IMG/VR virus record: IMGVR_UViG_3300025115_000028
Span: 1-38,954 of that record
Reading direction: 5' to 3' (one strand)
DNA from: a virus
DNA: 38,954 nucleotides
The notes beneath the pieces were generated by a model that worked only from the letters and a program-made list of their open reading frames with translations, did not search any database and was not told the DNA's origin. A program made the position numbers and the translations under genes. Positions within the stretch are counted from its first letter, which is position 1; each line of letters starts with the position of its first letter. Positions 2,034-38,954 of this stretch are shown one piece after another.

Positions 2034-2473
2034 TATTTATCTCCATTTTCAATTGAATCAAAAACCGACTCCATAAACTCAACAATTTTTCTAATCTTCT
2101 TTTTCTTTGTTGGTGTTCTTTTTACAGTGTCACCAACTTTAGAATAATGTCTCCATCCGCCAAAATCTCCACCCGTACTAATGCTTGCCACATCCATAGC
2201 ACCCGTGGTTATAGCCGCATCCTCTTCAACATCAGTAATTTTAGGCTTATCATTATTTATAGATTTTTTTCTATCATTCATTGATGCTTCTTTTTCTGCA
2301 CGCAATTTAATGTTAGAAATATTATTCTCTATTTGTTGTGACTTTTCTTCTAGATCCGCAATATCATTTTGAAACTTAAGAACAATCTCTCGTTTTTTAG
2401 ATATCTGATCTTGAAGTTGTTGCTTTTTAGACGCAAGATTCGCAATCATATTATTAGTTTTTTCACTATCCAT
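2033..2473 (-). CDS. Hypothetical coiled-coil protein upstream of T4-like portal
   Basis: A 146-residue acidic/basic protein. Residues 5-65 form a clear coiled coil with heptad-like leucine, isoleucine and glutamine spacing. The middle is Gly/Ser/Thr-rich (TTGAMDVASISTGGDFGGW) and a lysine cluster TPTKKKKIRK lies near residue 120. It ends one base into the portal start (TAATG), so the two are probably translationally coupled. The position just before a portal gene suggests a role in head assembly, for example a scaffold or portal-associated factor, but no family was recognised. It is not an obvious homologue of T4 gp67, gp68 or gp22. Confidence 0.75.
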   Translation of the reverse strand: MDSEKTNNMIANLASKKQQLQDQISKKREIVLKFQNDIADLEEKSQQIENNISNIKLRAEKEASMNDRKKSINNDKPKITDVEEDAAITTGAMDVASISTGGDFGGWRHYSKVGDTVKRTPTKKKKIRKIVEFMESVFDSIENGDK

Positions 2474-2489
2474 TATTTATACCGCCATA

Positions 2490-2888
2490 TCAGTTATTAA
2501 CGAGAATTTTAGATACTCTCTTCTCTATGCTATCCAAAAATTTAATTTTTTCTTTAAGAATAACATCTCTAATCTTCTCAACTACTTTCTTAATCTCTTT
2601 ATCATCGTCAGACTTCATTATCTTTTTAATCTCATAATTCAAAACACTTTTTAATTTTGTAGCAGACGGAAAAGACTTGTCAACCTCACGATCAAGATAA
2701 TCTATAAGACGCTTACAAAATTCATCGTCTATATACATTTTCCCATTATTATAATTAGAATCAGTTGTAATAGTATCTTCATCAGATTTAGATTTATTTA
2801 ATTCGACCTTTCGTATACCCATCCTACGCTTGGTATTATCAAGCATATGTTTTATATCGCCATAAAGATCCTCGTATAAATTATCCAT
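2490..2888 (-). CDS. Hypothetical charged helical protein
   Basis: A 132-residue, lysine/aspartate-rich and probably all-helical protein. It opens with MDNLYEDLYGDIKHMLDNT and ends with a helical segment LDSIEKRVSKILVNN. No Cys pattern, membrane segment or catalytic motif is visible. The start is preceded by AACGGAGATATA, a usable ribosome site (GGAG). It lies in the same operon as the portal gene, 16 bp upstream of the coiled-coil gene. Low-complexity Lys/Asp composition and AT-rich codons match the portal rather than the siphovirus genes. Function unknown. Confidence 0.7.
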   Translation of the reverse strand: MDNLYEDLYGDIKHMLDNTKRRMGIRKVELNKSKSDEDTITTDSNYNNGKMYIDDEFCKRLIDYLDREVDKSFPSATKLKSVLNYEIKKIMKSDDDKEIKKVVEKIRDVILKEKIKFLDSIEKRVSKILVNN

Positions 2889-2941
2889 TATATCTCCGTT
2901 TTAACAAACAATGTCCCATTACTACTATTTATATTAATTAC

Positions 2942-3349
2942 TTAATCATCAATTTCAGTTGAGTCCCAAGTTACATCACAAACCTGTTCTACCGTAACAC
3001 ATTGATTCTTTATATAATCTTGTTTCGTGATATTCTTGATATATGCTTCCATCCCCCATGCCTCAACTTCATCAATCATAGCAGACATATTAGCCAATGT
3101 GTCTATATGAGTTTTTTTAGAGTATGGGTCACGGGCAATACAATCTGTAGTACCAATCTTGGCGTAATATGACAAAAACGCCTTTAGAGAGAACAATGCC
3201 TCTCGTCCACCAGCAACATGCATATCTTCGGTTCTATTATTACCGTATTTAACTTTCAATCCTGCACGAATCATATTATTAAAATATAATTCAATTTCAT
3301 CCATTCGTTCCTGTTTGCTTGATTCAAGTTTTTGTTCAGGTGTCAACAT
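2942..3349 (-). CDS. Small protein following the adhesin gene, possibly fibre-associated
   Basis: A 135-residue protein. It has a helical N-terminus (LTPEQKLESSKQERMDEIELYFNN is the pattern, Lys/Glu/Gln rich), a middle with HVAGGREALFSLKAFLSYY and a helical C-terminal half around HIDTLANMSAMIDEVEAWG. Short proteins with an early R-x-x-E-I helix followed by paired helices often accompany tail-fibre genes (DUF4376-like), and this one lies 14 bp after an adhesin gene. That assignment is an inference from position and pattern only. The ribosome site AAGGAGACTTAAAA precedes the ATG. It probably belongs to the T4-like phage on the left side of the junction. Confidence 0.7.
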   Translation of the reverse strand: MLTPEQKLESSKQERMDEIELYFNNMIRAGLKVKYGNNRTEDMHVAGGREALFSLKAFLSYYAKIGTTDCIARDPYSKKTHIDTLANMSAMIDEVEAWGMEAYIKNITKQDYIKNQCVTVEQVCDVTWDSTEIDD

Positions 3350-3363
3350 TTTTAAGTCTCCTT

Positions 3364-4290
3364 TTAAGTTATAATTATTCGACGAAGTGTTTTGAAACTT
3401 ACATTCGCTCCGTATGACGTACCTACACTATTTGTTGCATACGCTCTCACATAATAAGTTGTTCCCGGTGATAATGATGTTAATGAAGATGTGAACGACC
3501 CTGTTCCGGTTCCATCCGTTGTTTTCGAGTTTTCCGTTGTAGGATCGGTTGAAGTATTCCAGCAAGCTCCCCTTGCTGTTACTGAAGCACCGCCATCAGA
3601 AGTGACATTTCCACCAGATGAAGCAGTTGTTCTTGTTATATTTGATATTGCTGTTGTTGTTACTGTAGGAACCGAACTAGAAACAGCCTCTTCAACTTCG
3701 ACACCTAAAATAATCATTGGTGCAGTTGCATTTGACTCTATAGTGTATGCCCCTGCAGGAAGTCTTGGAGAAACGGCACCCCATGTATAATTATTAATAT
3801 TGTGGGTAAACAGTAAAGTTCTTACTGTGCCTTGCGGAATCTCCATATTGGCGTTTGTGCTATCACCACCTATTGCACAGCCAATAATTATCGCATTTGC
3901 TGATATGTTTGATAGCGATATCGTCTTTGGAGTTGCTTGTGTATTGTCCCAACTAACAGTCCCGACACCCGAAGCACCTGTAAATGAGCAAACAAAAACA
4001 GAAGTACTGTTCCACTGCGCTGCGGTAAAAGTTACTGCAACATTGTTCGCTCCTGTTGCCGGATTATCGAGTTCATATACTCTCCAAAAATTGGAATATG
4101 ATGTTGAGACATCAAGCATTGATTTCATTGCCTCTCCGTTATATTTAACGGATGATAAATTGGTAGTAGGTGAGGCGACAATAACAACTAAATAGCCGTC
4201 AGAACCTTTGTTATGATTGTGAGAAAAGGAGTAACTACTTGAACCTGGGACTCTTACATCTGCTGTATGGTTGCCTTTAACTAATGCCAT
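3364..4290 (-). CDS. Adhesin-like structural protein with C-terminal fibronectin III-like domain (hybrid copy)
   Basis: A 308-residue protein. Residues 1-205 form a beta-rich domain starting MALVKGNHTADVRVPG and ending VEVEEA. Residues 210-302 resemble a fibronectin type III or Ig-like domain (TVTTTAISNITRTTASSGG, then SLSPGTTYYVRAYATNSVG). Such modules occur on phage tails and decorate surfaces for carbohydrate binding. The first domain is nearly identical to 35120-35764, but that copy lacks the FN3-like part. Differences between the copies are confined to 3775-3889, and everything left of 3685 is unrelated. This copy is therefore a junction between the siphovirus (N-terminal part) and the left-hand phage (C-terminal part). 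Whether the hybrid exists in nature is uncertain. Confidence 0.8.
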   Translation of the reverse strand: MALVKGNHTADVRVPGSSSYSFSHNHNKGSDGYLVVIVASPTTNLSSVKYNGEAMKSMLDVSTSYSNFWRVYELDNPATGANNVAVTFTAAQWNSTSVFVCSFTGASGVGTVSWDNTQATPKTISLSNISANAIIIGCAIGGDSTNANMEIPQGTVRTLLFTHNINNYTWGAVSPRLPAGAYTIESNATAPMIILGVEVEEAVSSSVPTVTTTAISNITRTTASSGGNVTSDGGASVTARGACWNTSTDPTTENSKTTDGTGTGSFTSSLTSLSPGTTYYVRAYATNSVGTSYGANVSFKTLRRIIIT

Positions 4291-4291
4291 A

Positions 4292-4573
4292 TTACAGCCC
4301 TTCCGTGTTTGTTATTTCAGTTAAATCCATACCATCTATACAGTTGGTATTACACCTACATTCATATACGAATGGTGTTTCTATGAAAAAATCACCTATT
4401 GAGACAGTGCCGTCTTGTAACCCAGTTTTATTATTTTCTATAAATACACCGAAACTCAAATCAGACGCTGAATTTATTTCATTCATTATACTCACATCAG
4501 TTGTATAATATACCGGAGTATATTCAATAGAACCATCAATAAACTGAATTTTACTTATGACAAAATATTCCAT
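4292..4573 (-). CDS. Small structural-region protein of unknown function
   Basis: A 93-residue protein with alternating hydrophobic/polar beta-type segments (MEYFVISKIQFIDGSIEY). It has three clustered cysteines near the C-terminus (YECRCNTNC), which could bind a metal or form a disulfide. It sits between the fibre gene and the adhesin gene, 15 bp after the first and 1 bp before the second, and is duplicated exactly at 35766-36047. The start is preceded by AACGGAGATA (GGAG). Likely a tail-tip accessory or short fibre-associated protein by position. No family recognised. Confidence 0.7.
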   Translation of the reverse strand: MEYFVISKIQFIDGSIEYTPVYYTTDVSIMNEINSASDLSFGVFIENNKTGLQDGTVSIGDFFIETPFVYECRCNTNCIDGMDLTEITNTEGL

Positions 4574-4588
4574 ATTATCTCCGTTTAC

Positions 4589-6481
4589 TTAATCTATTGT
4601 GTATCTGATATCAATTGACAATATGACACTTGTTCCGGAAGCCGCAGTCGTTTCAAGCCAAATCCAAGAATTGGCAGGAATTGCGGCAGTGCTTAAAGTC
4701 GCTGTGTTTCCTGTCGTTTTGCTTGTTGTTGCGGCACTTGTTGTCAAATTAGTTCCGGCGGCATCTCTATCAGTACCGTGTTTGAGTTGGTATGTTGTGC
4801 TTGGGCTTGTCCCAGTGCTAACAGCGATAACTTCATTAACAGTAATTGCAACATCCGTTCTGTAAATTGTTATGTCTTCAGACGCAGTTGGTGCTTCTAT
4901 AGTAATAGTCTTGGTAAGATTCTGACCACCTTTGGAAAGGTTTACAGCGACACCATCAGTACCCTTTGTAAACAAACTGCCACTGCTTGCGTAAATCTTC
5001 GCCGCATTCGTGGGGGTTGCTATGGGTTCGGCGGTGTTGTTGATTTGTATTTCACCTGTCTGATTAACCCTAAAAGGTTCAAATCTAACACCGCTGTCCT
5101 TACGCATTCGCAAAGCAAATGTAGTACCTATCTTTGTCGCATCCTCCGCTATACAGCACAGTTGCAGTTGTGCAGATATTGCGGTCAACGCAAACGATGA
5201 GTACTGACCATTTAGTCTATCTTCCAAGGCTGGAACATTAGCACATCGGACACCGTTTATATCAATTCCTGACGGAGAATACACTGTTAGGTTTATAAGG
5301 TCGTTTTGTATAAACCCAGTGTATTGTGCCCAAGCACTCAACAGACACCTCGAAGTACCCGCAGAATTCACCGAGTAGAGTTTACCGTCTGTCAATGCGT
5401 ATATTCCATGGTAGTTTGACAAATGTAATGGTGAGGGTCCTTCCCGAAGGAAAATCGCAGAGTCTCTTGAAATACCGTTTGTTACTGTTGTCCATTTACT
5501 CGCAATGTTAACACCGTTGACTTTGTAGGTCTGACCGGATGATATATCTATACCATTGGAAAATAAAAAACTCGTACCGATTGCCGCACTCGGAAACTTA
5601 ATATAAGATTCTGCATCTCCTGTCTGAAATGCGTTTAATTGCCAAGTACTACCGTCATTTGACAAAGTGAAACTGTTTGCGGCATTATCCGCACCTTGCT
5701 TTGTTACTCGCAGGTAATTGTTTGTTTTTATTACTGATGCTGATTCTTGTGACCACTTACTCGCAATGTTAACTCCGTTAATCTTGTAGGTCTGATTGGA
5801 TGGAATATCTATACCGTGCGTAACCTGTAACCGACCTTCCATATAATGGTCGTAACTATTTGTATAAGTGTTGCGTATTCGGTAAGGAGTGCCACTGCCA
5901 CCCATTGACAAGTCACCCAATTGGGCAAACCCCAAAATATATCCGTTAGGATTAGCAGGGTCGACAACGCCAAAAACACCCGCACCAGTATTCTCTCCGA
6001 GTTGGTATCCGATACCTGTATACCCTTGACCTGCAAGCGGGAAGGTTGTTGTTTTGTAGTTGGTACCGTTTAACCCAACGACTGAAAGAGGCTCGCCCGC
6101 AGTCCCATCACCTGTCAATGACGCATCGGTGGTAACAGTAGCACTACCCAATGTCTTCCACTCCCCACCCTCACGGAAATTAAAACCACCTTCCGTATAC
6201 TGTATTGTCCCGTTGTTATCTCCAGATGCCTCGCCGACAATTAGAGCACCGTTAATGTCAAGTTTCTCTCTTGTCAACGGTGTTGCCGTGTACCCTACCG
6301 AAAGGCTATCATAGAAGGTATTAGTTCCCTCTGTTGCCGCTTTTTTGTAGTTGTTTCCGACCCGTGCGATAAACTTCATGCTGTCGGATGCGAACCCGAA
6401 CATTTTATCTTTCAGTCTCGTACTTGTAAAGTCCGCTTCGACATCGTGTACCCGTATCACATCTTTGTATTCATCAGCCAT
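4589..6481 (-). CDS. Tail fibre protein
   Basis: A 630-residue fibre. The N-terminus (MADEYKDVIRVHDVEADFTS) probably attaches to the tail tip. The body contains two copies of a fibre repeat, GIDIPSNQTYKINGVNIASKW and GIDISSGQTYKVNGVNIASKW (about residues 224-245 and 312-333), a pattern common in phage fibre shafts. The Thr/Ser/Ala-rich C-terminal 110 residues (TTSAATTSKTTGNTATLSTA) look like a beta-structured head domain. It is 2 bp from the tail-tip gene stop. The same protein occurs unchanged at 36063-37955. It should contact the host surface. The receptor cannot be predicted. Confidence 0.85.
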   Translation of the reverse strand: MADEYKDVIRVHDVEADFTSTRLKDKMFGFASDSMKFIARVGNNYKKAATEGTNTFYDSLSVGYTATPLTREKLDINGALIVGEASGDNNGTIQYTEGGFNFREGGEWKTLGSATVTTDASLTGDGTAGEPLSVVGLNGTNYKTTTFPLAGQGYTGIGYQLGENTGAGVFGVVDPANPNGYILGFAQLGDLSMGGSGTPYRIRNTYTNSYDHYMEGRLQVTHGIDIPSNQTYKINGVNIASKWSQESASVIKTNNYLRVTKQGADNAANSFTLSNDGSTWQLNAFQTGDAESYIKFPSAAIGTSFLFSNGIDISSGQTYKVNGVNIASKWTTVTNGISRDSAIFLREGPSPLHLSNYHGIYALTDGKLYSVNSAGTSRCLLSAWAQYTGFIQNDLINLTVYSPSGIDINGVRCANVPALEDRLNGQYSSFALTAISAQLQLCCIAEDATKIGTTFALRMRKDSGVRFEPFRVNQTGEIQINNTAEPIATPTNAAKIYASSGSLFTKGTDGVAVNLSKGGQNLTKTITIEAPTASEDITIYRTDVAITVNEVIAVSTGTSPSTTYQLKHGTDRDAAGTNLTTSAATTSKTTGNTATLSTAAIPANSWIWLETTAASGTSVILSIDIRYTID

Positions 6482-6483
6482 TT

Positions 6484-9432
6484 TTATACTCCCTGTTCTA
6501 TTATGTTATCGTCATTATCACCCTGCTCGATTATATTATCGTCATTGTCTCCGGTCTCGATTATATTGCCAACCTCTGACACCGGAACCACCTCTACAAA
6601 CGCTGTACAGGTTACTTTCGGGTCTTTAATCTGTACTTGGTAGTTTACCTTGGTAATCACTCCTAAAAGGTCTCCAAGTGCCTCGTATTGCGGTACTGAA
6701 AGGTTTATCGGAGTTCCGATGTCAATATCGTTCTCAACTGCAAATTCATAAGGCACCGCAAAGGAAATTTCCCTGCGTTCTTTCACCGTTGTATCAGCAC
6801 CCTGCCATTTTAGCCATGAGTCAAGATACATGAAACCGGATTCATCCGCAGAAAACAGTTTACTATTTGTCAACTGCGTAGGAGGTGTATTTTTAATGCC
6901 GTAATATACATACAACATCCGACCAGCATTCCAAAGACCTTCGGGGTCTGACAGTACCGCATTGGTTTCGATGTATGCCGGATCGTACACCGCCTTGTCG
7001 GTATTTGTGACCCGTATGTATTTAGTGTATTTCTGCGAACCTTCATCCCATGCGAAATTTATTATCGGTTCGCAGAAAATATCGTTCGTATTTCGGTCTT
7101 TGATATTACCGAGTGAGCCATCAATAATGTTTGTGAGGTTGATTTCAGTTCTTATAATACTTGGATTGAAAAATCCGTGCATGAAAAACAGTTTGTATCT
7201 TCCTAATCTGTCAAGCGACAGGATCGACCAAGAGTTCTGACAAAGGTCATTCAGCATTTTAGTGCTTGAAGAATCCTCGTATTTGTTAATCTGATAACTG
7301 AACTGCCCATTATTGCCGTAGTATGCAGACTGCAATCCTCCCCACGATGTGCTATTGTCAAGCACGGTCGCATAGTCATCAGTCGCATAAGTAAACGAGT
7401 ACCCCTCACGGGAATAGTCCTGCAGTCGTACAATATGATTCATCAAGTCGTATGGGTCGTACATGATGTTAGTAGCACCGGTGCCAAATTGTGTAGTTCC
7501 GAACTGCCTGCCGTACCAATGTGCGAAGATGCCCGTTTCGGTGTTGATGTCCGCAATCGGTACGCACAAACCAAACTGATACATATCGATCTTATGCGAT
7601 AGGGTTGTGATAGCGGGTGTCGTTTGTCGTTGGTAATTAACTAATAAGTAAATGTCAAATGTATCGTTTTGCACATATTTTAAATACTTGTTGTAATCGA
7701 ATGTGACTAAATTATATCCGCCTAATGAATTATAAGCACCTGTGATTTTTAGATTTTTCTCGAAAAAATTAATCTCATTAGTTGAATAAAATGGCAAGCC
7801 ACTAAAATCTAACCAATTAGAATCGAAATTGTTTAATCCAAAATCAAGATAAGTGTCAGCCTCCGTGAAAGTAGCAATCCCATTTTCTGCATTTATAAAT
7901 GGTTTATATTTTTCATTACAAATAATATATTTATACTTCAATGGTAATGACGATACATCTGTTATGCCGAAATAACAACACAGCAGCGGAAAAGCATTTT
8001 CAATATCAAAACTCGGCTTTTGAAATGTCAATTTAAATAAATGTCCAAAAATTATAGAGTCACCTTCACCCGATGAGTGTTGGTATTCAATATCAAGCGA
8101 CTTCACCGTTGTTGTCAATCTATCACTACAAGTCGTAAGCGAGCCTGTATCGGTAGTATTCGCATCAACAATCGATACAGGAGAGTTTGATACTGTTGTT
8201 TTGCTAAAAAATGTAGTTAAATCAGACCCTGTTTTTGTGTAGTTATAGAAAAATAAATTGTCGTCATCAAGACCATTATAATCAGTAGGAGCTCCGAGTG
8301 TTGCCGTGTCTGCAACAATACTTGTCGGTGTTAAAAACATGAAGCCACTGACTTTTTTAAAATCTTCTATTGTTCCACTTGATATTACAACCTTGTTGGT
8401 ATCAATGTTTAACACTCCCGCATTCTGTATTTGAGTGTATCCACTATCAACATGAGTATATAAATCGTTACCTACAAACCCTGTCGACTGAAAATCATCC
8501 GAAGAGAATTCAAGATTAAATCTGAAAAATTGCAGATAAGATATTGCCTCTGCGGCGCCCGTTTTATCCTTAAAATCATAATTTGTACCATCAAAGGATA
8601 GCGCCTCTGTTAGGTTGATGTAAAATATCCCGTTAGGATCAGAGTCTATTGGTGACGGGATAATATATCCCACGGAATCAACTTTTTTGCAAATATTTTT
8701 CCCGTTCCCGTGAATACATTTTACATATAAATTGTCATAGGTATTCAGCAAAGCAACAAAGTCATCAATATTTGAAAAATTAAATTCAACTTCGCTTAAA
8801 TTAACAGCGATAATGTATCCAGGAGGAAAGCCTGGTGTTGGCTTTATTTTATCAACTTGTAGTATAATTTTCCCGTAATTTGTCAAATCATCACCGATAC
8901 ATTCAACAGGTTGAATATCACTCACCGATGCCGTTAATCTCACTTTCTCCACATCACCAAAAATAATTGGTATACAAGAATCCACATCAACGCCACGCTT
9001 ACCGATATAAGTTTCCCGCAAAGCCGAAACATCTTCATAAGTAACCACCATTTCCGTTTCGTCAAATTCCTGTTTGGTAATATATCCGGTGTATAGCACA
9101 TATTCAGTCATACCGCCGAGGTCAATCAATTCAATCTTGCATCCTGTCAACTGAATATCGTTATTTGCAAGCCATGTCGAGAACCCGCTTATATTGTTGA
9201 CCTTTACAGAACCACCGCCAATACTTGTTATTTTCCCGTTTCTGCGAGGGTCTACGCTTTTGCTGAATCCGGTACACCACTCCTGCGTTAATATGCCAGA
9301 CTTCCAGCCTGTCATCATGTCATCAGCCTTGAGAAGCCACAGGAAAGACCCGTCTGCATATCCGAAATTATTTGAGGGGGTGCCGATGTCGTTTGCGTTT
9401 GATATTCTGATTCCGAAATTTGCTATCCGCAT
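6484..9432 (-). CDS. Large tail-tip (hub / tail-associated) protein
   Basis: 982 residues, the largest gene in the window. It lies directly after the distal-tail gene, where siphoviruses encode the tail-associated or hub protein that closes the tube and carries fibres. The N-terminus (MRIANFGIRISNANDIGT) is followed by a segment with LTGCKIELIDLGG and VLYTGYITKQEF, similar to domains at the start of tail-tip hubs. The rest is beta-rich. The last 30 residues are a decapeptide repeat, NIIEQGDNDD, about 2.7 copies. No cell-wall hydrolase motif was found. The first base of the ATG abuts the stop of the upstream gene. The C-terminal third is repeated at 37958-38954. Confidence 0.75.
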   Translation of the reverse strand: MRIANFGIRISNANDIGTPSNNFGYADGSFLWLLKADDMMTGWKSGILTQEWCTGFSKSVDPRRNGKITSIGGGSVKVNNISGFSTWLANNDIQLTGCKIELIDLGGMTEYVLYTGYITKQEFDETEMVVTYEDVSALRETYIGKRGVDVDSCIPIIFGDVEKVRLTASVSDIQPVECIGDDLTNYGKIILQVDKIKPTPGFPPGYIIAVNLSEVEFNFSNIDDFVALLNTYDNLYVKCIHGNGKNICKKVDSVGYIIPSPIDSDPNGIFYINLTEALSFDGTNYDFKDKTGAAEAISYLQFFRFNLEFSSDDFQSTGFVGNDLYTHVDSGYTQIQNAGVLNIDTNKVVISSGTIEDFKKVSGFMFLTPTSIVADTATLGAPTDYNGLDDDNLFFYNYTKTGSDLTTFFSKTTVSNSPVSIVDANTTDTGSLTTCSDRLTTTVKSLDIEYQHSSGEGDSIIFGHLFKLTFQKPSFDIENAFPLLCCYFGITDVSSLPLKYKYIICNEKYKPFINAENGIATFTEADTYLDFGLNNFDSNWLDFSGLPFYSTNEINFFEKNLKITGAYNSLGGYNLVTFDYNKYLKYVQNDTFDIYLLVNYQRQTTPAITTLSHKIDMYQFGLCVPIADINTETGIFAHWYGRQFGTTQFGTGATNIMYDPYDLMNHIVRLQDYSREGYSFTYATDDYATVLDNSTSWGGLQSAYYGNNGQFSYQINKYEDSSSTKMLNDLCQNSWSILSLDRLGRYKLFFMHGFFNPSIIRTEINLTNIIDGSLGNIKDRNTNDIFCEPIINFAWDEGSQKYTKYIRVTNTDKAVYDPAYIETNAVLSDPEGLWNAGRMLYVYYGIKNTPPTQLTNSKLFSADESGFMYLDSWLKWQGADTTVKERREISFAVPYEFAVENDIDIGTPINLSVPQYEALGDLLGVITKVNYQVQIKDPKVTCTAFVEVVPVSEVGNIIETGDNDDNIIEQGDNDDNIIEQGV
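6488..6570 (-). repeat. 30-bp tandem repeat at the 3' end of the tail-tip gene
   Basis: About 2.7 copies of a 30-bp unit encode NIIE(T/Q)GDNDD repeats at the C-terminus of the tail-tip protein. The units differ at a few bases. Because the period is a multiple of three, copy-number change would keep frame. The same array lies at 37962-38044. Confidence 0.85.
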
Positions 9433-21134: not shown

Positions 21135-21468
21135 AGATTTTCTCTAAATCTTGAGCGGTTTCCTTGGTACTGACCACAATCTGCATCGGCTTTCGGGTCA
21201 CATCATTGACATCAAGCGACTGCTTCGCCTTGCCGTAGCCTCGGTCGAGGAGTTCCTGTATCGCCCGAATATCACCTTTTGCAGCCATCGACCGCAGTTG
21301 CTGAAGGATTAACTGCAATGTAGTTTTCCCGTTGATTTCATCCGCCATCAGTTCCCGCATTGCTTCCCGAATATCCGGCAGTTTCTGCCGTCCTTTGGGG
21401 TTTCCCGATTCGCCTTTTTTCCACCGTGGCGTAACCATGTGTCCGGTGTGTTTCGTTTTAGTTGACAT
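21112..21468 (-). CDS. Terminase small subunit-like (DUF5681-type) protein
   Basis: 118 residues. The N-terminal GESGNPKGRQK is the signature of DUF5681-like small proteins found beside terminases. The following helices (REAMRELMADE, TLQLILQQLRSMA, AIQELLDRGYGK) resemble the DNA-binding and oligomerisation region of small terminases. It overlaps the large subunit by 23 bp and the methyltransferase gene by 11 bp. It probably recognises the packaging site. Confidence 0.78.
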   Translation of the reverse strand: MSTKTKHTGHMVTPRWKKGESGNPKGRQKLPDIREAMRELMADEINGKTTLQLILQQLRSMAAKGDIRAIQELLDRGYGKAKQSLDVNDVTRKPMQIVVSTKETAQDLEKIFADNEGI

Positions 21469-22621
21469 TATACGGCTCTCCGTTGCGTTTGATTGTTAAT
21501 GTCGGGTCAAGTTTTATCATTCTGTCAATAATAATTTTACAGTATTTCGAGTCAAGTTCCATCCCGTAGCATTTGCGTTTCAGTTGGTGCGATGCTACCA
21601 TTGTGGTGCCGGAGCCGAGAAAAAGGTCTGTAACTAAATCGTTTTGGCTGCCCCAATTATCAAAAAAGAATGTTGCTAATTTAATTGGCTTTTGTGTTGG
21701 GTGTACTTTGTTTTGTGCATCTTGTTCGCCACTAAATAAAGTGTTGTTTATTCTTGCAATTTTCCTTTGATGCTTATTTCTACTCCAACACAATTCAAAT
21801 GCCGATCCTATCATTTTATCAAACTTTTCATCTACTCTCTTATCCCAAACTATCCAACTTCCACTATTTTTACTGGGTAATAATTCAGCAAAATAGTCAG
21901 CACCCCAAATAAAAACCTCTTTACAGTAATCAAAACAAGCAAAAATAGTATTTATTAGTTCGGGTGTAAAATCTTCGGCATCACCTTTTATTTGTTTATG
22001 TTTTTTTGGCTTTGCCCCATTGGGTGCCGTTGGCATTTTTGTATAATCAGTATCAAGAAACATCCCATAAGGCGGGTCAGTAAACACCATATCCGCCTTC
22101 TCCCCATTCATCAACTTTTCAACCTGCAATACATCCGTACTATCACCGCACAATAGCCGATGCTCCCCAATCTCAAACAGGTCTCCGAGTACAATATCCG
22201 TCTGCACTTCTTCCGGTATCTCAAAATCATCCTCTTCGGCGGTCAATTCCTCTTTAAACTCCGGCACATCCAATCCCCAATCTGTCAACTCCTCAAGGTT
22301 CCAGTCTGCTTGGAGCATTGACCAATCCCATTCACCGCCGGAGACATTATCCTTGATGATAAATTCCTTCTGCTGTTGTTCCGTCAACTGGTCCGCCTTG
22401 ATAATCGGCACTTCCTTCAGCCCCGCCGCTTTGCAGGCTTTTAGCCGCATATTACCGCCGAGCACCACCATATCGGTATTGACCACGATCGGGCGTATTT
22501 TAAGCATCTCTGGGAAGTCCTTAATGGATTTGACAAGCGACTCAAATTTATCATCCTTGATCACCCGAGGATTGTTCGGGTTTGACTTTACAAGTGCGAT
22601 CTTTACCGTTTCGGTCTGCAT
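21458..22621 (-). CDS. ParB-like N-terminal domain fused to DNA N6-adenine/N4-cytosine methyltransferase
   Basis: 387 residues. Residues 1-100 are ParB-like: VKSNPNNPRVIKDDKFESLV, then IRPIVVNTDMVVLGGNMRLKA and VPIIKADQLTEQQQKEFI. Residues about 150-387 form a methyltransferase with the catalytic DPPYGM (motif IV, about 191), HPTQKP and the SAM-binding DLFLGSGTTMVA (motif I, about 338). DPPY before FxGxG is the beta-type order. The start is ATG at 22619-22621 after GGAGGGAAA; a longer frame would start inside the leader hairpin and is rejected. No restriction enzyme is nearby, so it is an orphan methyltransferase, perhaps for defence evasion or packaging control. The site it modifies is unknown. 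Confidence 0.92.
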   Translation of the reverse strand: MQTETVKIALVKSNPNNPRVIKDDKFESLVKSIKDFPEMLKIRPIVVNTDMVVLGGNMRLKACKAAGLKEVPIIKADQLTEQQQKEFIIKDNVSGGEWDWSMLQADWNLEELTDWGLDVPEFKEELTAEEDDFEIPEEVQTDIVLGDLFEIGEHRLLCGDSTDVLQVEKLMNGEKADMVFTDPPYGMFLDTDYTKMPTAPNGAKPKKHKQIKGDAEDFTPELINTIFACFDYCKEVFIWGADYFAELLPSKNSGSWIVWDKRVDEKFDKMIGSAFELCWSRNKHQRKIARINNTLFSGEQDAQNKVHPTQKPIKLATFFFDNWGSQNDLVTDLFLGSGTTMVASHQLKRKCYGMELDSKYCKIIIDRMIKLDPTLTIKRNGEPYNVN

Positions 22622-22648
22622 TTTCCCTCCGTTGCATTTCCGTTGTAA

Positions 22649-22667
22649 ATCGGGCAAAATGCCCGAT
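22649..22667 (-). promoter_or_regulatory. Leader hairpin of the methyltransferase-terminase operon
   Basis: Perfect 8-bp inverted repeat (ATCGGGCA / TGCCCGAT) with a 3-base loop, immediately downstream of the promoter at 22675-22703. It may be a transcript 5' hairpin or an operator. The T-run needed for a terminator is absent. Confidence 0.55.
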
Positions 22668-23048: not shown

Positions 23049-23096
23049 TTAATTGTATAAACCCGTTAGGATTCCTGTCGGTAGTAGTGATTTCAT
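23049..23096 (-). CDS. Possible 15-residue leader peptide
   Basis: ATG at 23094-23096 opens MKSLLPTGILTGLYN and stops at 23049-23051, 18 bases before the next gene start. AAAAGGAG lies 7 bases upstream of the ATG, a strong ribosome site, which is why it is listed. Translation may couple to the 22704-23030 gene. Size gives no functional information. Confidence 0.4.
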   Translation of the reverse strand: MKSLLPTGILTGLYN

Positions 23097-23114: not shown

Positions 23115-23355
23115 AAGTAAGTAATGGTAAGTAATGTACGAGTAATGTTATATAATGTAATATTTATAAGGGTTATATATATATACATTACTTCATTACT
23201 CCATTACTTGTATTATTCTCATGTACGCGATACATATATACACATTTTTTATTTTCACATATAACCCCTTATATATATCCTTTTTTTCTTGTAATGAGTA
23301 AGGACTTTTTAAGTCATTGATTTTAAACAACATCCTCATTACTCCCATTACTCTC
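23115..23355. other. AT-rich iteron cluster, putative replication origin
   Basis: Eight 7-mers AGTAATG or its complement CATTACT fall within 233 bp: direct at 23120, 23130 and 23141, inverted at 23186, 23194, 23202, 23337 and 23346 (the last two inside the 3' end of the neighbouring ATPase gene). The direct copies are spaced 10-11 bp, one helical turn, and the inverted group 8 bp. An AT run with alternating TA steps (about 23171-23185) lies between them. A longer inverted repeat, TATAAGGG(G)TTATAT, flanks the region (about 23165-23180 and 23262-23278). Next to a primase/helicase-type gene this is the layout of an iteron origin. It fills the 270-bp gap, where no convincing gene is present. Confidence 0.65.
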
Positions 23356-25077
23356 AACCCGTATCACCCAGCATCTCGGTGATGTATTATTGATCCACTT
23401 ATTGACATTTACCTCGTCAACATGGTTATTTTTTACCCATTTGTCAAGTACTGCATCTTTATTGAAACCCTTTTTTGAAAGTATCTCTGATAGTTTTGCG
23501 GTTATTATAAAATACTGATTTGGGTTATCGGGGTTTCTTTTCCCCCATTGTTCCATGTTGCTTTTGGATTCAAATCTATTCGGATTTGAGGCTATTTCAG
23601 AAACAAGATATTCGTATGCCCGTTCTGATTGTTCTACCTGATCGTGATCTTTTATTATACTACTGATAAAAGGCTTGCCAAAATCGGCAAGGTTCCAGTC
23701 AAAGCATTTATTAAAAAACTCCCTTGCCGTTAATATTACACAAACGGAAAGCATTTGCTTATCTGTTGCCTTTGATGAACTAAATGAGGAAACTAATTGC
23801 CTATAATACTGCTTTATTTCCATTTCATGCTCAATAATGTATTTAATCCACCGCTCGGCAATGAATCCGTAATTTTTTTGTATAATTTCGGCATATTCCG
23901 GACCAGTTTTATTTGGGTATAATTCAACATCTGATTTTATGGCAAGAATACGGTTTATTTCGCCCGCCTGTGAGTTTTGGTCGGTCAAAGACACTTCACC
24001 CGTTGAAATCGTTATTAGATTCCATGTCAAATCGTCCCTAATTGTCATTTTTGCTGTTGCTCTGCGCTTCCCTTTACCATTTGCGAGCATATAGATATCC
24101 CTTGTCAACCGTTCCTTATCGGATTGCTGGGATTCGTCAAGGCATAAAGGCAATGAATTTAGGAAATTTGCTGTCACCTCAATACCCGCACCTGTAGTAT
24201 TATGCGATTGTACAAGTGCCAAAGGGTCACCCCATGCCGAAACAACAGCCTGCAAAGTGAGTGTTTTCCCTCCCCCTGTCATACCGTCAATATGGACAAT
24301 AAACGGAAGAGCATTAATTTTATTAAGCAAAGGAGATGCAACAGAAGCCAAGAATAGGAATCTGAAAACATCAAATTTACACTTTTCCTGTATTGCCGAC
24401 TTCCAAAGGTTATAATCACCATTTTGCCTTACCGCATTAAAAACATTTGAGTATGAGACATCACCGTCATACATTATCCCATTTAAAAATGGTGAACATT
24501 GCCCGTTTATCCACCCCATGCGCCCAATAGAGGGTTTTATAGGTAAATGGTTTCCGTTGATAATTATCATATCTTGAATGTATTTGCAGACATCTCCGGC
24601 ATTTTTTGGATTTATAGCAATTAAATAATGCCCTGCCGCCATACCGAAATCCCTTGACGATGTGAGAACGGTATAATCAAAAACCGCTGTTTTGGGCTTT
24701 TCCCCTGTTATTTTCCACCACAACTCAACCTTCCTCGCTCCGTTGACAATATTTTCGTATTTACAAATCGGCAATATAGGATGCCTCATTATCTGGTATC
24801 CATCAAGAAAAACTCCATCATTATTGACAGTATATTCTTCGGAAAAAGAACAGTCATCAAAACCATCAACAATTACAACACCGGAATTTTCTTGTTTTTT
24901 ACAGGTTTTTTCCGCTTCTTTTATTTTCCCTGCATACTGCACTTTTGCCTCTTTGCATAATTTTTGGAAAACAGTAATCAGCTTGGCTTTTTCTATGCTT
25001 TCCGGCATTTTGTATAATTCGATGAAATTATCAAAGACATACATATCTTCGGTTGTTAATGTTTCGGTATTAATCAT
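23323..25077 (-). CDS. DUF927-like replication ATPase/helicase
   Basis: 584 residues. The P-loop is GMTGGGKTLTLQ (about residues 268-279), followed by a Walker B-like LPLCLDESQQ (about 315) and a further motif (QAGEINRILAIKSD, about 370). This arrangement matches the DUF927/plasmid-phage primase-helicase C-terminal family. Residues 1-90 are a helical N-terminus, and residues 90-220 contain the domain preceding the ATPase (GYQIMRHPILPICKYENIV and WWKITGEKPKTAV). The last 150 residues include a likely winged-helix region. It probably unwinds the origin that lies at its 3' end. The primase zinc finger is encoded separately at 25952-26413. Confidence 0.78.
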   Translation of the reverse strand: MINTETLTTEDMYVFDNFIELYKMPESIEKAKLITVFQKLCKEAKVQYAGKIKEAEKTCKKQENSGVVIVDGFDDCSFSEEYTVNNDGVFLDGYQIMRHPILPICKYENIVNGARKVELWWKITGEKPKTAVFDYTVLTSSRDFGMAAGHYLIAINPKNAGDVCKYIQDMIIINGNHLPIKPSIGRMGWINGQCSPFLNGIMYDGDVSYSNVFNAVRQNGDYNLWKSAIQEKCKFDVFRFLFLASVASPLLNKINALPFIVHIDGMTGGGKTLTLQAVVSAWGDPLALVQSHNTTGAGIEVTANFLNSLPLCLDESQQSDKERLTRDIYMLANGKGKRRATAKMTIRDDLTWNLITISTGEVSLTDQNSQAGEINRILAIKSDVELYPNKTGPEYAEIIQKNYGFIAERWIKYIIEHEMEIKQYYRQLVSSFSSSKATDKQMLSVCVILTAREFFNKCFDWNLADFGKPFISSIIKDHDQVEQSERAYEYLVSEIASNPNRFESKSNMEQWGKRNPDNPNQYFIITAKLSEILSKKGFNKDAVLDKWVKNNHVDEVNVNKWINNTSPRCWVIRVESNGSNEDVV

Positions 25078-25951: not shown

Positions 25952-26413
25952 CTACTTTGACGGGTGAATTTCCCTCCACCGCTCATAAGACAGCGGTTCT
26001 GAATCGGTCATCAATCCGAAATTTATAAACTCGTACAGCCTGCCGTCGAGCCAATTGCGTTTATATTCAAGGTATTCCCGTTTACGATTGAACTCTTCAG
26101 CAGCCGCCTGTTTCTGTTTGTCAATTTCCGATTTATCAACCGGAGCATCGAGATTATACCCAAGTCTGAAATCATCATTCAAAATCCGGATCGCTTCCGG
26201 AAAAGTGACTGAAAACCTGCGCTGAATAAATCCGAAAATATCAACGGAGTCATTACACACGAAACAATGCCCCTGCGAGGCGTTTGTTGCCATGTTGTAA
26301 TCATTGCCACCGTGTAGAGGGCATTTGCACCGATTGCCCCGAAATTCAACCCCGTAATGCGAGAAAACCTGTTTCGGTGTTAGTTGGTCTTTTATTAATT
26401 GCTTGTAGTTCAT
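25952..26413 (-). CDS. CHC2 zinc-finger protein (primase-type domain)
   Basis: 153 residues. The zinc-binding pattern C-x-C-P-L-H, then HCFVC, at about residues 28-52 is the CHC2 zinc finger of DnaG-type primases. The following DSVDIFGFIQRRFSVTFPEA, a helix with aromatic residues, is also typical. No TOPRIM domain follows, and the C-terminal half is a charged helix plus a short tail. It probably supplies template recognition for priming with the ATPase at 23323-25077, or with a host primase. Its start lies inside the upstream small gene (68-bp overlap). Confidence 0.85.
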   Translation of the reverse strand: MNYKQLIKDQLTPKQVFSHYGVEFRGNRCKCPLHGGNDYNMATNASQGHCFVCNDSVDIFGFIQRRFSVTFPEAIRILNDDFRLGYNLDAPVDKSEIDKQKQAAAEEFNRKREYLEYKRNWLDGRLYEFINFGLMTDSEPLSYERWREIHPSK

Positions 26414-28537: not shown

Positions 28538-28869
28538 TGCTTACCCTCCGCAAAATATGCCGCAACTTCAATTTTAACATCCTCCAATGATCTGCAAACT
28601 ACAACATGATTCCCGCAGTCTTGTAAGGCAAGCATGGTGCGATACTGGATGTCCGAGATTCTCCCGGATATGGTTTTGAGTTCGATATACATAGCACCCC
28701 ATGCCCCGCAAGGAGCAGGGATGCAGATATCCGGTATACCTGCTTTGGTGCCTGCTGAATGGTGCTTCCCTTCGTTTCGCACATGGTAAGCGAGGGCGAG
28801 TTCCGGCAGTTTGTTGTATTGACTTCTGAACCATTTGAATACTGCGCTTTGCAGTTGCGACTCGGTCAT
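28534..28869 (-). CDS. VRR-NUC-type nuclease
   Basis: 111 residues. GIPDICIPAP and MYIELKTISGRISDIQ are the PD and E-x-K of the VRR-NUC nuclease family (residues about 43-76), followed by a helix with the usual Q (IQYRTMLALQDCG). VVVCRSLEDVK is the final strand-helix. Such standalone small VRR-NUC proteins occur with phage SF2 helicases and may resolve branched DNA. The start MTESQLQSA lies in a 38-bp sequence duplicated 326 bp upstream. The ATG overlaps the Cys-repeat gene stop (ATGA). Confidence 0.88.
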   Translation of the reverse strand: MTESQLQSAVFKWFRSQYNKLPELALAYHVRNEGKHHSAGTKAGIPDICIPAPCGAWGAMYIELKTISGRISDIQYRTMLALQDCGNHVVVCRSLEDVKIEVAAYFAEGKQ

Positions 28870-28880
28870 TGTTTAACCTC
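28843..28880 (-). repeat. 38-bp direct repeat, copy at the VRR-NUC start
   Basis: Identical to 29169-29206. It spans the last codons EVKQ-stop of the preceding gene, GAGG ribosome site, ATG and the first nine codons (MTESQLQSA) of the VRR-NUC gene. Confidence 0.92.
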
Positions 28881-29195
28881 GCAGTCTCTACAGTCTGTAC
28901 AGTATATGCAGTCTCTGCAGTTTGTGCAATCTCTGCAGGCTTTACAGTCTTTACAGTCTGTACAATCCGTGCAGTCTATACAATCTGTGCAATCTCTGCA
29001 ATCCGTACAATCTATGCAATCTGTGCAATCTATACAGCCCACAAGTGAAACACTTCTTTCAGACGCCTGCTCTTCAGTGTAGTTGGACATACTCCATCTA
29101 TTACTATTGTCATCTACATAGTACCCATTTTCTTTTTTCATTTTCTTCTCTCTTCCTTGCACACAATGTGCGCTTTGCAGTTGCGACTCGGTCAT
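28866..29195 (-). CDS. Cys-tripeptide-repeat protein
   Basis: 109 residues from ATG 29195, or 91 from the internal ATG at 29141 (MKKENGYYVDDNSNR), which has GGAAGAGAGAAGAAA before it. The C-terminal half is 17 repeats of Cys-x-Asp-like tripeptides, such as CIDCTDCIDCTDCRD, with 18 cysteines at every third residue. Such repeats may form a narrow solenoid or bind several metal ions. The first nine residues and the last four (EVKQ) derive from the 38-bp duplication of the flanking genes, so the gene sits exactly between the repeats. The N-terminal middle (WSMSNYTEEQASERSVS) shows no domain. Function unknown. Confidence 0.75.
   Translation of the reverse strand: MTESQLQSAHCVQGREKKMKKENGYYVDDNSNRWSMSNYTEEQASERSVSLVGCIDCTDCIDCTDCRDCTDCIDCTDCTDCKDCKACRDCTNCRDCIYCTDCRDCEVKQ
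28881..29036 (-). repeat. 9-bp minisatellite encoding Cys-x-Asp tripeptides
   Basis: About 17 units of a degenerate 9-bp repeat (coding strand TG(C/T)-NNN-GAC-like) give the Cys-tripeptide array. The unit is three codons, so gains and losses keep frame. Third-position and Cys-codon variation between units shows that the array is old or under protein-level selection. Confidence 0.88.
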
Positions 29196-35119: not shown

Positions 35120-35764
35120 TTAACTGACTAAAAATATTCTACGAGTTGTTGGAGCAGTAGCCTCTTCAACTTCGACACCTAAAATAATCATTGGTGCAGT
35201 TGCATTTGACTCTATAGTGTATGCCCCTGCAGGAAGTCTTGGAGAAACTGCACCCCATGTATAGTTGTTAATATTATGATTGAACAGTAATGTTCTTGCC
35301 GTGCCTTGCGGAATCTCCATATTTGCATTTGTATTATTACCACCTATCGCACACCCAATAATCATCGCATTTGCTGATATGTTTGATAGCGATATCGTCT
35401 TTGGAGTTGCTTGTGTATTGTCCCAACTAACAGTCCCGACACCCGAAGCACCTGTAAATGAGCAAACAAAAACAGAAGTACTGTTCCACTGCGCTGCGGT
35501 AAAAGTTACTGCAACATTGTTCGCTCCTGTTGCCGGATTATCGAGTTCATATACTCTCCAAAAATTGGAATATGATGTTGAGACATCAAGCATTGATTTC
35601 ATTGCCTCTCCGTTATATTTAACGGATGATAAATTGGTAGTAGGTGAGGCGACAATAACAACTAAATAGCCGTCAGAACCTTTGTTATGATTGTGAGAAA
35701 AGGAGTAACTACTTGAACCTGGGACTCTTACATCTGCTGTATGGTTGCCTTTAACTAATGCCAT
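35120..35764 (-). CDS. Siphovirus adhesin-like protein, short allele without FN3-like domain
   Basis: 214 residues. Residues 1-205 match the protein at 3364-4290 except for five substitutions (I/M, D/N, S/N, V/A and T/N). The C-terminus is different, TAPTTRRIFLVS, and the FN3-like domain is missing. This is probably the true siphovirus version, since it is followed directly by the siphovirus lysis genes. It likely forms a tail-tip surface domain that recognises the host. Confidence 0.82.
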   Translation of the reverse strand: MALVKGNHTADVRVPGSSSYSFSHNHNKGSDGYLVVIVASPTTNLSSVKYNGEAMKSMLDVSTSYSNFWRVYELDNPATGANNVAVTFTAAQWNSTSVFVCSFTGASGVGTVSWDNTQATPKTISLSNISANAMIIGCAIGGNNTNANMEIPQGTARTLLFNHNINNYTWGAVSPRLPAGAYTIESNATAPMIILGVEVEEATAPTTRRIFLVS

Positions 35765-35765
35765 A

Positions 35766-36047
35766 TTACAGCCCTTCCGTGTTTGTTATTTCAGTTAAAT
35801 CCATACCATCTATACAGTTGGTATTACACCTACATTCATATACGAATGGTGTTTCTATGAAAAAATCACCTATTGAGACAGTGCCGTCTTGTAACCCAGT
35901 TTTATTATTTTCTATAAATACACCGAAACTCAAATCAGACGCTGAATTTATTTCATTCATTATACTCACATCAGTTGTATAATATACCGGAGTATATTCA
36001 ATAGAACCATCAATAAACTGAATTTTACTTATGACAAAATATTCCAT
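35766..36047 (-). CDS. Small structural-region protein (second copy of 4292-4573)
   Basis: Same 93-residue product as at 4292-4573, including the final YECRCNTNC cluster, with no differences seen. It is probably the same gene read a second time, not a paralogue. Confidence 0.8.
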   Translation of the reverse strand: MEYFVISKIQFIDGSIEYTPVYYTTDVSIMNEINSASDLSFGVFIENNKTGLQDGTVSIGDFFIETPFVYECRCNTNCIDGMDLTEITNTEGL

Positions 36048-36062
36048 ATTATCTCCGTTTAC

Positions 36063-37955
36063 TTAATCTATTGTGTATCTGATATCAATTGACAATATGA
36101 CACTTGTTCCGGAAGCCGCAGTCGTTTCAAGCCAAATCCAAGAATTGGCAGGAATTGCGGCAGTGCTTAAAGTCGCTGTGTTTCCTGTCGTTTTGCTTGT
36201 TGTTGCGGCACTTGTTGTCAAATTAGTTCCGGCGGCATCTCTATCAGTACCGTGTTTGAGTTGGTATGTTGTGCTTGGGCTTGTCCCAGTGCTAACAGCG
36301 ATAACTTCATTAACAGTAATTGCAACATCCGTTCTGTAAATTGTTATGTCTTCAGACGCAGTTGGTGCTTCTATAGTAATAGTCTTGGTAAGATTCTGAC
36401 CACCTTTGGAAAGGTTTACAGCGACACCATCAGTACCCTTTGTAAACAAACTGCCACTGCTTGCGTAAATCTTCGCCGCATTCGTGGGGGTTGCTATGGG
36501 TTCGGCGGTGTTGTTGATTTGTATTTCACCTGTCTGATTAACCCTAAAAGGTTCAAATCTAACACCGCTGTCCTTACGCATTCGCAAAGCAAATGTAGTA
36601 CCTATCTTTGTCGCATCCTCCGCTATACAGCACAGTTGCAGTTGTGCAGATATTGCGGTCAACGCAAACGATGAGTACTGACCATTTAGTCTATCTTCCA
36701 AGGCTGGAACATTAGCACATCGGACACCGTTTATATCAATTCCTGACGGAGAATACACTGTTAGGTTTATAAGGTCGTTTTGTATAAACCCAGTGTATTG
36801 TGCCCAAGCACTCAACAGACACCTCGAAGTACCCGCAGAATTCACCGAGTAGAGTTTACCGTCTGTCAATGCGTATATTCCATGGTAGTTTGACAAATGT
36901 AATGGTGAGGGTCCTTCCCGAAGGAAAATCGCAGAGTCTCTTGAAATACCGTTTGTTACTGTTGTCCATTTACTCGCAATGTTAACACCGTTGACTTTGT
37001 AGGTCTGACCGGATGATATATCTATACCATTGGAAAATAAAAAACTCGTACCGATTGCCGCACTCGGAAACTTAATATAAGATTCTGCATCTCCTGTCTG
37101 AAATGCGTTTAATTGCCAAGTACTACCGTCATTTGACAAAGTGAAACTGTTTGCGGCATTATCCGCACCTTGCTTTGTTACTCGCAGGTAATTGTTTGTT
37201 TTTATTACTGATGCTGATTCTTGTGACCACTTACTCGCAATGTTAACTCCGTTAATCTTGTAGGTCTGATTGGATGGAATATCTATACCGTGCGTAACCT
37301 GTAACCGACCTTCCATATAATGGTCGTAACTATTTGTATAAGTGTTGCGTATTCGGTAAGGAGTGCCACTGCCACCCATTGACAAGTCACCCAATTGGGC
37401 AAACCCCAAAATATATCCGTTAGGATTAGCAGGGTCGACAACGCCAAAAACACCCGCACCAGTATTCTCTCCGAGTTGGTATCCGATACCTGTATACCCT
37501 TGACCTGCAAGCGGGAAGGTTGTTGTTTTGTAGTTGGTACCGTTTAACCCAACGACTGAAAGAGGCTCGCCCGCAGTCCCATCACCTGTCAATGACGCAT
37601 CGGTGGTAACAGTAGCACTACCCAATGTCTTCCACTCCCCACCCTCACGGAAATTAAAACCACCTTCCGTATACTGTATTGTCCCGTTGTTATCTCCAGA
37701 TGCCTCGCCGACAATTAGAGCACCGTTAATGTCAAGTTTCTCTCTTGTCAACGGTGTTGCCGTGTACCCTACCGAAAGGCTATCATAGAAGGTATTAGTT
37801 CCCTCTGTTGCCGCTTTTTTGTAGTTGTTTCCGACCCGTGCGATAAACTTCATGCTGTCGGATGCGAACCCGAACATTTTATCTTTCAGTCTCGTACTTG
37901 TAAAGTCCGCTTCGACATCGTGTACCCGTATCACATCTTTGTATTCATCAGCCAT
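36063..37955 (-). CDS. Tail fibre protein (second copy of 4589-6481)
   Basis: The 630-residue product is identical to that at 4589-6481. Complete identity over this length, with a fixed offset, argues for map wrap-around rather than an ancient duplication. Confidence 0.88.
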   Translation of the reverse strand: MADEYKDVIRVHDVEADFTSTRLKDKMFGFASDSMKFIARVGNNYKKAATEGTNTFYDSLSVGYTATPLTREKLDINGALIVGEASGDNNGTIQYTEGGFNFREGGEWKTLGSATVTTDASLTGDGTAGEPLSVVGLNGTNYKTTTFPLAGQGYTGIGYQLGENTGAGVFGVVDPANPNGYILGFAQLGDLSMGGSGTPYRIRNTYTNSYDHYMEGRLQVTHGIDIPSNQTYKINGVNIASKWSQESASVIKTNNYLRVTKQGADNAANSFTLSNDGSTWQLNAFQTGDAESYIKFPSAAIGTSFLFSNGIDISSGQTYKVNGVNIASKWTTVTNGISRDSAIFLREGPSPLHLSNYHGIYALTDGKLYSVNSAGTSRCLLSAWAQYTGFIQNDLINLTVYSPSGIDINGVRCANVPALEDRLNGQYSSFALTAISAQLQLCCIAEDATKIGTTFALRMRKDSGVRFEPFRVNQTGEIQINNTAEPIATPTNAAKIYASSGSLFTKGTDGVAVNLSKGGQNLTKTITIEAPTASEDITIYRTDVAITVNEVIAVSTGTSPSTTYQLKHGTDRDAAGTNLTTSAATTSKTTGNTATLSTAAIPANSWIWLETTAASGTSVILSIDIRYTID

Positions 37956-37957
37956 TT

Positions 37958-38954
37958 TTATACTCCCTGTTCTATTATGTTATCGTCATTATCACCCTGC
38001 TCGATTATATTATCGTCATTGTCTCCGGTCTCGATTATATTGCCAACCTCTGACACCGGAACCACCTCTACAAACGCTGTACAGGTTACTTTCGGGTCTT
38101 TAATCTGTACTTGGTAGTTTACCTTGGTAATCACTCCTAAAAGGTCTCCAAGTGCCTCGTATTGCGGTACTGAAAGGTTTATCGGAGTTCCGATGTCAAT
38201 ATCGTTCTCAACTGCAAATTCATAAGGCACCGCAAAGGAAATTTCCCTGCGTTCTTTCACCGTTGTATCAGCACCCTGCCATTTTAGCCATGAGTCAAGA
38301 TACATGAAACCGGATTCATCCGCAGAAAACAGTTTACTATTTGTCAACTGCGTAGGAGGTGTATTTTTAATGCCGTAATATACATACAACATCCGACCAG
38401 CATTCCAAAGACCTTCGGGGTCTGACAGTACCGCATTGGTTTCGATGTATGCCGGATCGTACACCGCCTTGTCGGTATTTGTGACCCGTATGTATTTAGT
38501 GTATTTCTGCGAACCTTCATCCCATGCGAAATTTATTATCGGTTCGCAGAAAATATCGTTCGTATTTCGGTCTTTGATATTACCGAGTGAGCCATCAATA
38601 ATGTTTGTGAGGTTGATTTCAGTTCTTATAATACTTGGATTGAAAAATCCGTGCATGAAAAACAGTTTGTATCTTCCTAATCTGTCAAGCGACAGGATCG
38701 ACCAAGAGTTCTGACAAAGGTCATTCAGCATTTTAGTGCTTGAAGAATCCTCGTATTTGTTAATCTGATAACTGAACTGCCCATTATTGCCGTAGTATGC
38801 AGACTGCAATCCTCCCCACGATGTGCTATTGTCAAGCACGGTCGCATAGTCATCAGTCGCATAAGTAAACGAGTACCCCTCACGGGAATAGTCCTGCAGT
38901 CGTACAATATGATTCATCAAGTCGTATGGGTCGTACATGATGTTAGTAGCACCG
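37958..38954 (-). CDS. Tail-tip protein, C-terminal part (second copy, cut by window edge)
   Basis: Open to the right edge: about 331 codons of the C-terminal part of the 982-residue tail-tip protein, ending in the same NIIEQGDNDD repeats. An internal ATG at 38938 lies in the frame but is not a true start; the real start is beyond the window. Confidence 0.88.
   Translation of the reverse strand, partial: GATNIMYDPYDLMNHIVRLQDYSREGYSFTYATDDYATVLDNSTSWGGLQSAYYGNNGQFSYQINKYEDSSSTKMLNDLCQNSWSILSLDRLGRYKLFFMHGFFNPSIIRTEINLTNIIDGSLGNIKDRNTNDIFCEPIINFAWDEGSQKYTKYIRVTNTDKAVYDPAYIETNAVLSDPEGLWNAGRMLYVYYGIKNTPPTQLTNSKLFSADESGFMYLDSWLKWQGADTTVKERREISFAVPYEFAVENDIDIGTPINLSVPQYEALGDLLGVITKVNYQVQIKDPKVTCTAFVEVVPVSEVGNIIETGDNDDNIIEQGDNDDNIIEQGV

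Follow-up and report, generated by a model that had tools for sequence, protein, structure and literature searches.

The origins of SaPIs are found just downstream of rep and are made of iterons recognized by the C-terminal domain of Rep, which apparently acts as two hexamers; Cch, a protein with DUF927, is related to the Rep of SaPIbov1, and Cch2, from another family of helicases, binds three direct repeats of AAGTG (PMC7581432). The origins of PICIs always comprise two sets of iterons around an AT-rich region, and rep together with its ori sustains plasmid replication, as reported for SaPIbov1, SaPI1, EfCIV583, and EcCICFT073 (PMC6092414). In the SaPI replicon found in the record of Staphylococcus phage PT1028, of which our comparison took in the replication gene and the gap only, directly behind a DUF927 gene comes an AT stretch with AGTTCCCG repeats to its left and right. 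Because the Rep of other SaPIs is of a different, D5-like kind, a DUF927 initiator marks the SaPIbov1 branch. Short repeats bound by an initiator beside an AT-rich melting region are also found in the RepA/TrfA iteron plasmid origins and in the lambda O system, where the initiators are non-helicases that need DnaB loading and where the iterons are mostly direct and on one side.

Here, we analyzed a window consisting of the whole 38954-bp stretch of a viral record, in which a previous sequence-only reading had proposed a cluster of AGTAATG repeats as a candidate replication origin. The comparison with relatives and the identity of the adjacent gene support this proposal. The cluster is very probably the replication start of a small tailed phage, and we are strongly inclined to see in it, more precisely, a replication origin of the SaPI/PICI type that belongs to a tailed phage of ~31.5 kb and has the adjacent helicase as a self-loading initiator. 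The locus shares with SaPIbov1 and the PICIs the DUF927 MCM-like helicase fold, the location of the origin 3' of the gene, and the opposed iterons around an AT stretch. It differs from them in that the window is a complete tailed phage with a full structural gene set, which a PICI satellite lacks, in that its iteron is AGTAATG instead of the AGTTCCCG of the SaPI examined, and in that two of its iterons are inside the helicase gene; moreover, its potential partner is a zinc-ribbon CHC2 protein, whereas an AEP primase is reported for SaPIs. The Cch of SCCmec (5dgk) has the same DUF927 core, HTH_56 family, and fold, but SCC elements are chromosomal cassettes, and the SCC literature examined describes no origin for the Cch type (pattern 1).

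A two-armed iteron cluster around an AT-rich core

The eight exact copies of AGTAATG that the sequence-only reading had placed within 23120–23352, three on the plus strand and five on the minus strand, were all recovered, and so was the arrangement that it had described. The three plus copies of the left arm are spaced by 10 and 11 bp and the minus copies of the right arm by 8 and 8 bp, on either side of an AT run (three plus copies, a 38-bp AT core, three minus copies), and the last two minus copies (23337 and 23346, 9 bp apart) are located in the end of the helicase ORF, whose final residues ESNGSNEDVV they encode. Overall, the iterons straddle the 3' end of the helicase gene, reaching 30 nt into the gene and about 200 nt past its end. 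Two additional plus copies with one mismatch each (TGTAATG at 23290 and AGTAAGG at 23297) form a second arm that had not been listed. The order on plus-strand coordinates is then three plus copies, the AT core, three minus copies, an AT spacer, two degenerate plus copies, and two minus copies; read along the helicase gene, it is two in-gene copies, two degenerate inverted ones, an AT-rich spacer of ~80 bp, three copies, the 38-bp core, and three inverted copies, so that the cluster amounts to two inverted pairs of arrays. The features are as follows:

23115–23355, no strand: candidate replication origin, comprising the whole iteron cluster, AT-rich core, and spacer (repeats, AT content, same layout in relatives)
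23120–23126, plus: iteron copy 1 (AGTAATG), left arm (exact word)
23130–23136, plus: iteron copy 2, left arm (exact word)
23141–23147, plus: iteron copy 3, left arm (exact word)
23148–23185, no strand: AT-rich core between the inverted arms, candidate melting site (AT content)
23186–23192, minus: iteron copy 4, right arm, inverted (exact word)
23194–23200, minus: iteron copy 5, right arm (exact word)
23202–23208, minus: iteron copy 6, right arm (exact word)
23209–23289, no strand: AT-rich spacer separating the two inverted array pairs (AT content)
23290–23303, plus: two degenerate iterons, each with a single mismatch, that make up the first arm of the second inverted pair (one-mismatch count)
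23337–23343, minus: iteron copy 7, inside the last helicase codons (exact word, ORF)
23346–23352, minus: iteron copy 8, inside the last helicase codons (exact word, ORF)
23323–25077, minus: MCM-like AAA+ helicase with DUF927 and a C-terminal HTH_56, proposed iteron-binding and self-loading initiator (profiles, predicted structure)
25952–26413, minus: short, primase-like CHC2 zinc-ribbon protein of 153 aa, proposed priming partner (profiles)

The AGTAATG cluster is far beyond chance. Indeed, eight copies in 233 bp make it the strongest non-simple 7-mer cluster of the window, the next best having five copies; the best non-simple 7-mer reached three (40 times) or four copies (20 times) in 60 local dinucleotide shuffles, and 1,000 shuffles of the 301-bp region never gave more than two. 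Nor is the word equally dense elsewhere, as 8 of its 11 copies in the window sit in the cluster and the remaining three are single (2917, 16431, and 35286). The AT content of the window peaks in the 60 bp around the AT core, at 83%, a value reached by 2 of 3,890 sampled windows. A search of the window against Rfam matched no known RNA element.

The adjacent helicase and the phage genome

The protein encoded at the repeats is a 584-aa helicase matching DUF927 (1.3e-35) and, at residues 485–575, PF18662, the “Cch helix turn helix domain” (2.2e-13); its best solved relatives by sequence are 8tch (6.8e-22) and Cch 5dgk (3e-11). We compared with known structures an AlphaFold model built with 37 relatives (pLDDT 81, with moderate confidence in the C-terminal part). 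It aligned to SaPIbov1 Rep (8tch) with a Z of 33.3 (rmsd 5.9 over 439 residues, model positions 67–575) and to SCCmec Cch (5dgk) with a Z of 29.5 (rmsd 6.5 over 460 residues), when all other structure entries scored 12.8 or less, the next being MCM helicases at about 12. The two features expected of the SaPIbov1 Rep/Cch family are found in the protein: an MCM-like AAA+ core with its Walker A lysine, G270 and K271 being invariant among 38 sequences, and a C-terminal winged-helix DNA-binding domain, indicated by PF18662 and by the fold alignment, which for both 8tch and 5dgk reaches model residue 575–578. At the sequence level, the helicase is only 20–28% identical to its relatives. With regard to the initiator, for which both the ATPase and the CHC2 protein had been put forward, these results favor the ATPase, which combines a Cch-type helix-turn-helix with the SaPIbov1 Rep/Cch fold; the CHC2 protein, as a primase zinc-ribbon, is a less likely site-specific binder. 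The latter has no recognized TOPRIM domain, and in loci L007 and L008 of our comparative set, CHC2 domain and helicase form a single fused protein. As another observation on these proteins, an SSB-like acidic tail (...EELPF or ...DLPF) ends the helicase in 33 of 51 representatives (including L003, L004, L007, and L008), and among other ORFs, 44 of 442 have a PF tail. The helicase of the window has no SSB-like LPF tail and ends in the residues encoded by the two iterons.

The established part of the origin reading comprises the repeats with their statistics, the AT core, the helicase gene with the fold predicted for its product, and a position and layout conserved in relatives. On this basis, and by analogy with the helicase family, we infer how replication might start. 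The C-terminal winged helix of the DUF927/HTH_56 helicase would bind the AGTAATG iterons, and the two opposed arrays would set two helicase hexamers face to face over the AT-rich core. The core would then melt, the helicases would depart bidirectionally, the CHC2 protein or a host primase would prime, and a host polymerase would carry out synthesis.

The genome around the cluster is that of a phage. Positions 35159–38954 directly repeat positions 3685–7480 (3796 bp, 99.5% identity), which implies a circular or permuted phage genome of ~31474 bp, most simply a circle. The clean closed circle assumed by the sequence-only reading was not borne out, since beside the 31474-bp circle implied by the terminal repeat, the first ~3.6 kb look foreign. 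This end (1–3600), where the GC content is about 30% compared with about 43% elsewhere, is probably chimeric; the join falls inside a minor tail gene (3364–4290), and the ORF at 3–2033 on the minus strand encodes a portal protein of the T4 type (PF07230, 4.7e-66) that an intein splicing domain (PF14890, 6e-10) interrupts. The window has genes for terminase, portal, head morphogenesis, tape measure, tail, and endolysin. The genes around the cluster are on the minus strand, leading up to the helicase in the order RecT-type single-strand annealing protein, Gp157/Gam-like protein, VRR nuclease, SF2 helicase, and CHC2, and continuing beyond the cluster with a 114-aa ORF, a ParB-domain methyltransferase (21458–22657), a small ORF, terminase, portal, and head and tail genes. 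A very short ORF with a strong ribosome-binding site (MKSLLPTGILTGLYN, 23049–23096, minus strand) lies between the origin and the 114-aa gene, and a 109-aa ORF (28866–29195) is rich in CTDCxDC-type cysteine repeats and belongs to PHROG 15341, of unknown function. GC skew, which had been suggested as a check of the origin, is monotonic and shows no turning point; it is uninformative here, the minus strand encoding nearly all genes.

The same layout in other phages

Our set of helicase loci rose to over 110 with scans of viral contigs, for which narrower alignments were used, an eight-member alignment being too diverse. From phage and viral-contig records, 54 representatives were retained, the window included, after removing helicases with more than 80% identity and requiring enough downstream sequence. 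In each of them, we counted exact words in the 450 nt starting 40 nt before the helicase stop codon, with other windows of the same loci as controls, motif refinement having drifted to poly-A/AT words in several loci. A 7-mer with at least five copies was found behind the helicase in 38 of 54 loci versus 5 of 991 control windows (Fisher p 4e-51), and one with at least six copies in 34 of 54 versus none of 991; 47 of the 54 loci have their strict maximum in the region behind the helicase. All 48 loci with at least four copies have them in both orientations, with a same-strand spacing of mostly 7–12 bp, and the remaining six hold fewer than four copies of any word in this exact-word test. In these diverged relatives, a 7-mer cluster recurs at the same position, and its word differs from phage to phage (GTAACAA, GGTTACA, GGTGAAA, GGCGATA, or GTCCCAC) while the layout persists.

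Five named phages whose helicases are annotated as MCM-like or DnaG-MCM illustrate this point, namely, Roseburia Jekyll, Faecalibacterium FP_Epona, Ruminococcus phiRg507T2_3, Thermoanaerobacterium THSA-485A, and Anaerostipes AC844P1. Like the window, they have a helicase of this family with inverted iterons behind its gene, but their helicases are 22–27% identical to that of the window and their iteron words are others: GTAACAA in phiRg507T2_3 and Jekyll, GGTAACCG in THSA-485A, and TAGGTGAAAC in FP_Epona. Most of these phages also have the acidic ...LPF C-terminal tail missing in the window protein, and their iteron arrays bear no annotation in the record stretches examined. No close relative of the window phage or of its helicase was found in viral and genome contigs; relatives reached through the terminase had no DUF927 helicase in the stretches examined, and four relatives reached through the SF2 helicase had both a DUF927 helicase and the arrays. 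Across 48 loci, repeat words resemble each other in step with their HTH domains once similarity in the ATPase core is controlled for (partial rank correlation 0.22, a value reached in 0 of 999 permutations), and more so than in the reverse test (0.10, 45 of 999). This coupling is suggestive only, because the permutation test leaves some shared ancestry in.

Some of these origins have a second conserved element, which is close to CAAACCCGCATAAATACTGGnTTT, often hairpin-like and located between inverted iterons, and absent from the window; it was seen in L007 (84 and 264 nt behind the helicase), L077, L078, L111, L079, L103, L006, and L005. For this element, the 8-mer CCGCATAA was counted in 16 of 51 origins, where 0.5 would be expected, and the loci searched gave no Rfam match.

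The comparison also bears on other ways to read the repeats. Iterons are often also operators of their own initiator, and the cluster sits between two genes of one transcription direction; it could therefore be a set of regulator sites, serving the downstream genes (114-aa ORF, ParB/methyltransferase) or the autoregulation of the helicase operon, and the Ruminococcus phage even has a gene for a small DNA-binding protein between helicase and repeats. However, the array follows the helicase gene while the downstream neighbors differ between phages, and the 54-locus test ties its position to the helicase 3' end rather than to any downstream gene. Moreover, none of the 54 loci has a cluster of at least five copies in the 450 nt before the helicase gene, a scan of the gene strand inside the cluster detected neither a strong promoter nor a terminator, and opposed arrays around an AT core are unnecessary for an operator, so that we regard an operator cluster as very unlikely. 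Even if the cluster is an origin, its binder might be another protein (the CHC2 protein, the 114-aa protein, or host DnaA), with the helicase only loaded there, since many phages use a separate initiator and loader and the CHC2 gene is close by. This is very improbable in our view: the layout recurs whether CHC2 is fused to or separate from the helicase, the 114-aa protein matches no family significantly, AGTAATG bears no resemblance to the DnaA box TTATCCACA, and the helicase itself has a helix-turn-helix domain. Finally, a packaging, partition, or recombination site (pac, parS, att) in place of an origin can be given hardly any credence, for although repeats with AT tracts are known at such sites and a ParB-domain methyltransferase gene is nearby, there is no integrase among the proteins searched, the terminase is separate and about 2 kb away, and the arrays 3' of the helicase recur in phages with other gene orders.

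Phage and satellite replicons

Returning to the replication origin, the window appears, as far as its letters can tell, to have every feature of the SaPI/PICI type, yet within a complete phage. The SaPI/PICI-type origin is known; what is new is its breadth in tailed phages with DUF927/HTH_56 helicases, among which the layouts compared here indicate that it is general. Indeed, the layout is present at 48 of 54 nonredundant DUF927-helicase loci, named complete phages included. This provides a simple rule by which the origins of many uncultivated phages could be located, which is to check directly behind the DUF927/HTH_56 gene, and the varied iteron words facing a single HTH domain family are natural material for recognition rules. 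The spread of the layout in phages also opens the evolutionary link between the replicons of phages and those of satellites to testing. With regard to this link, we more tentatively propose, as a possibility that we hold to be rather doubtful, that self-loading MCM-like initiators with PICI-type two-arm origins may be a widespread strategy of true tailed phages, many of which would use the CAAACCCGCATAAATACTGGnTTT element and the LPF tail to recruit the host primosome. If this were true, the PICI replicon would have been borrowed from such tailed phages or would be common to them.
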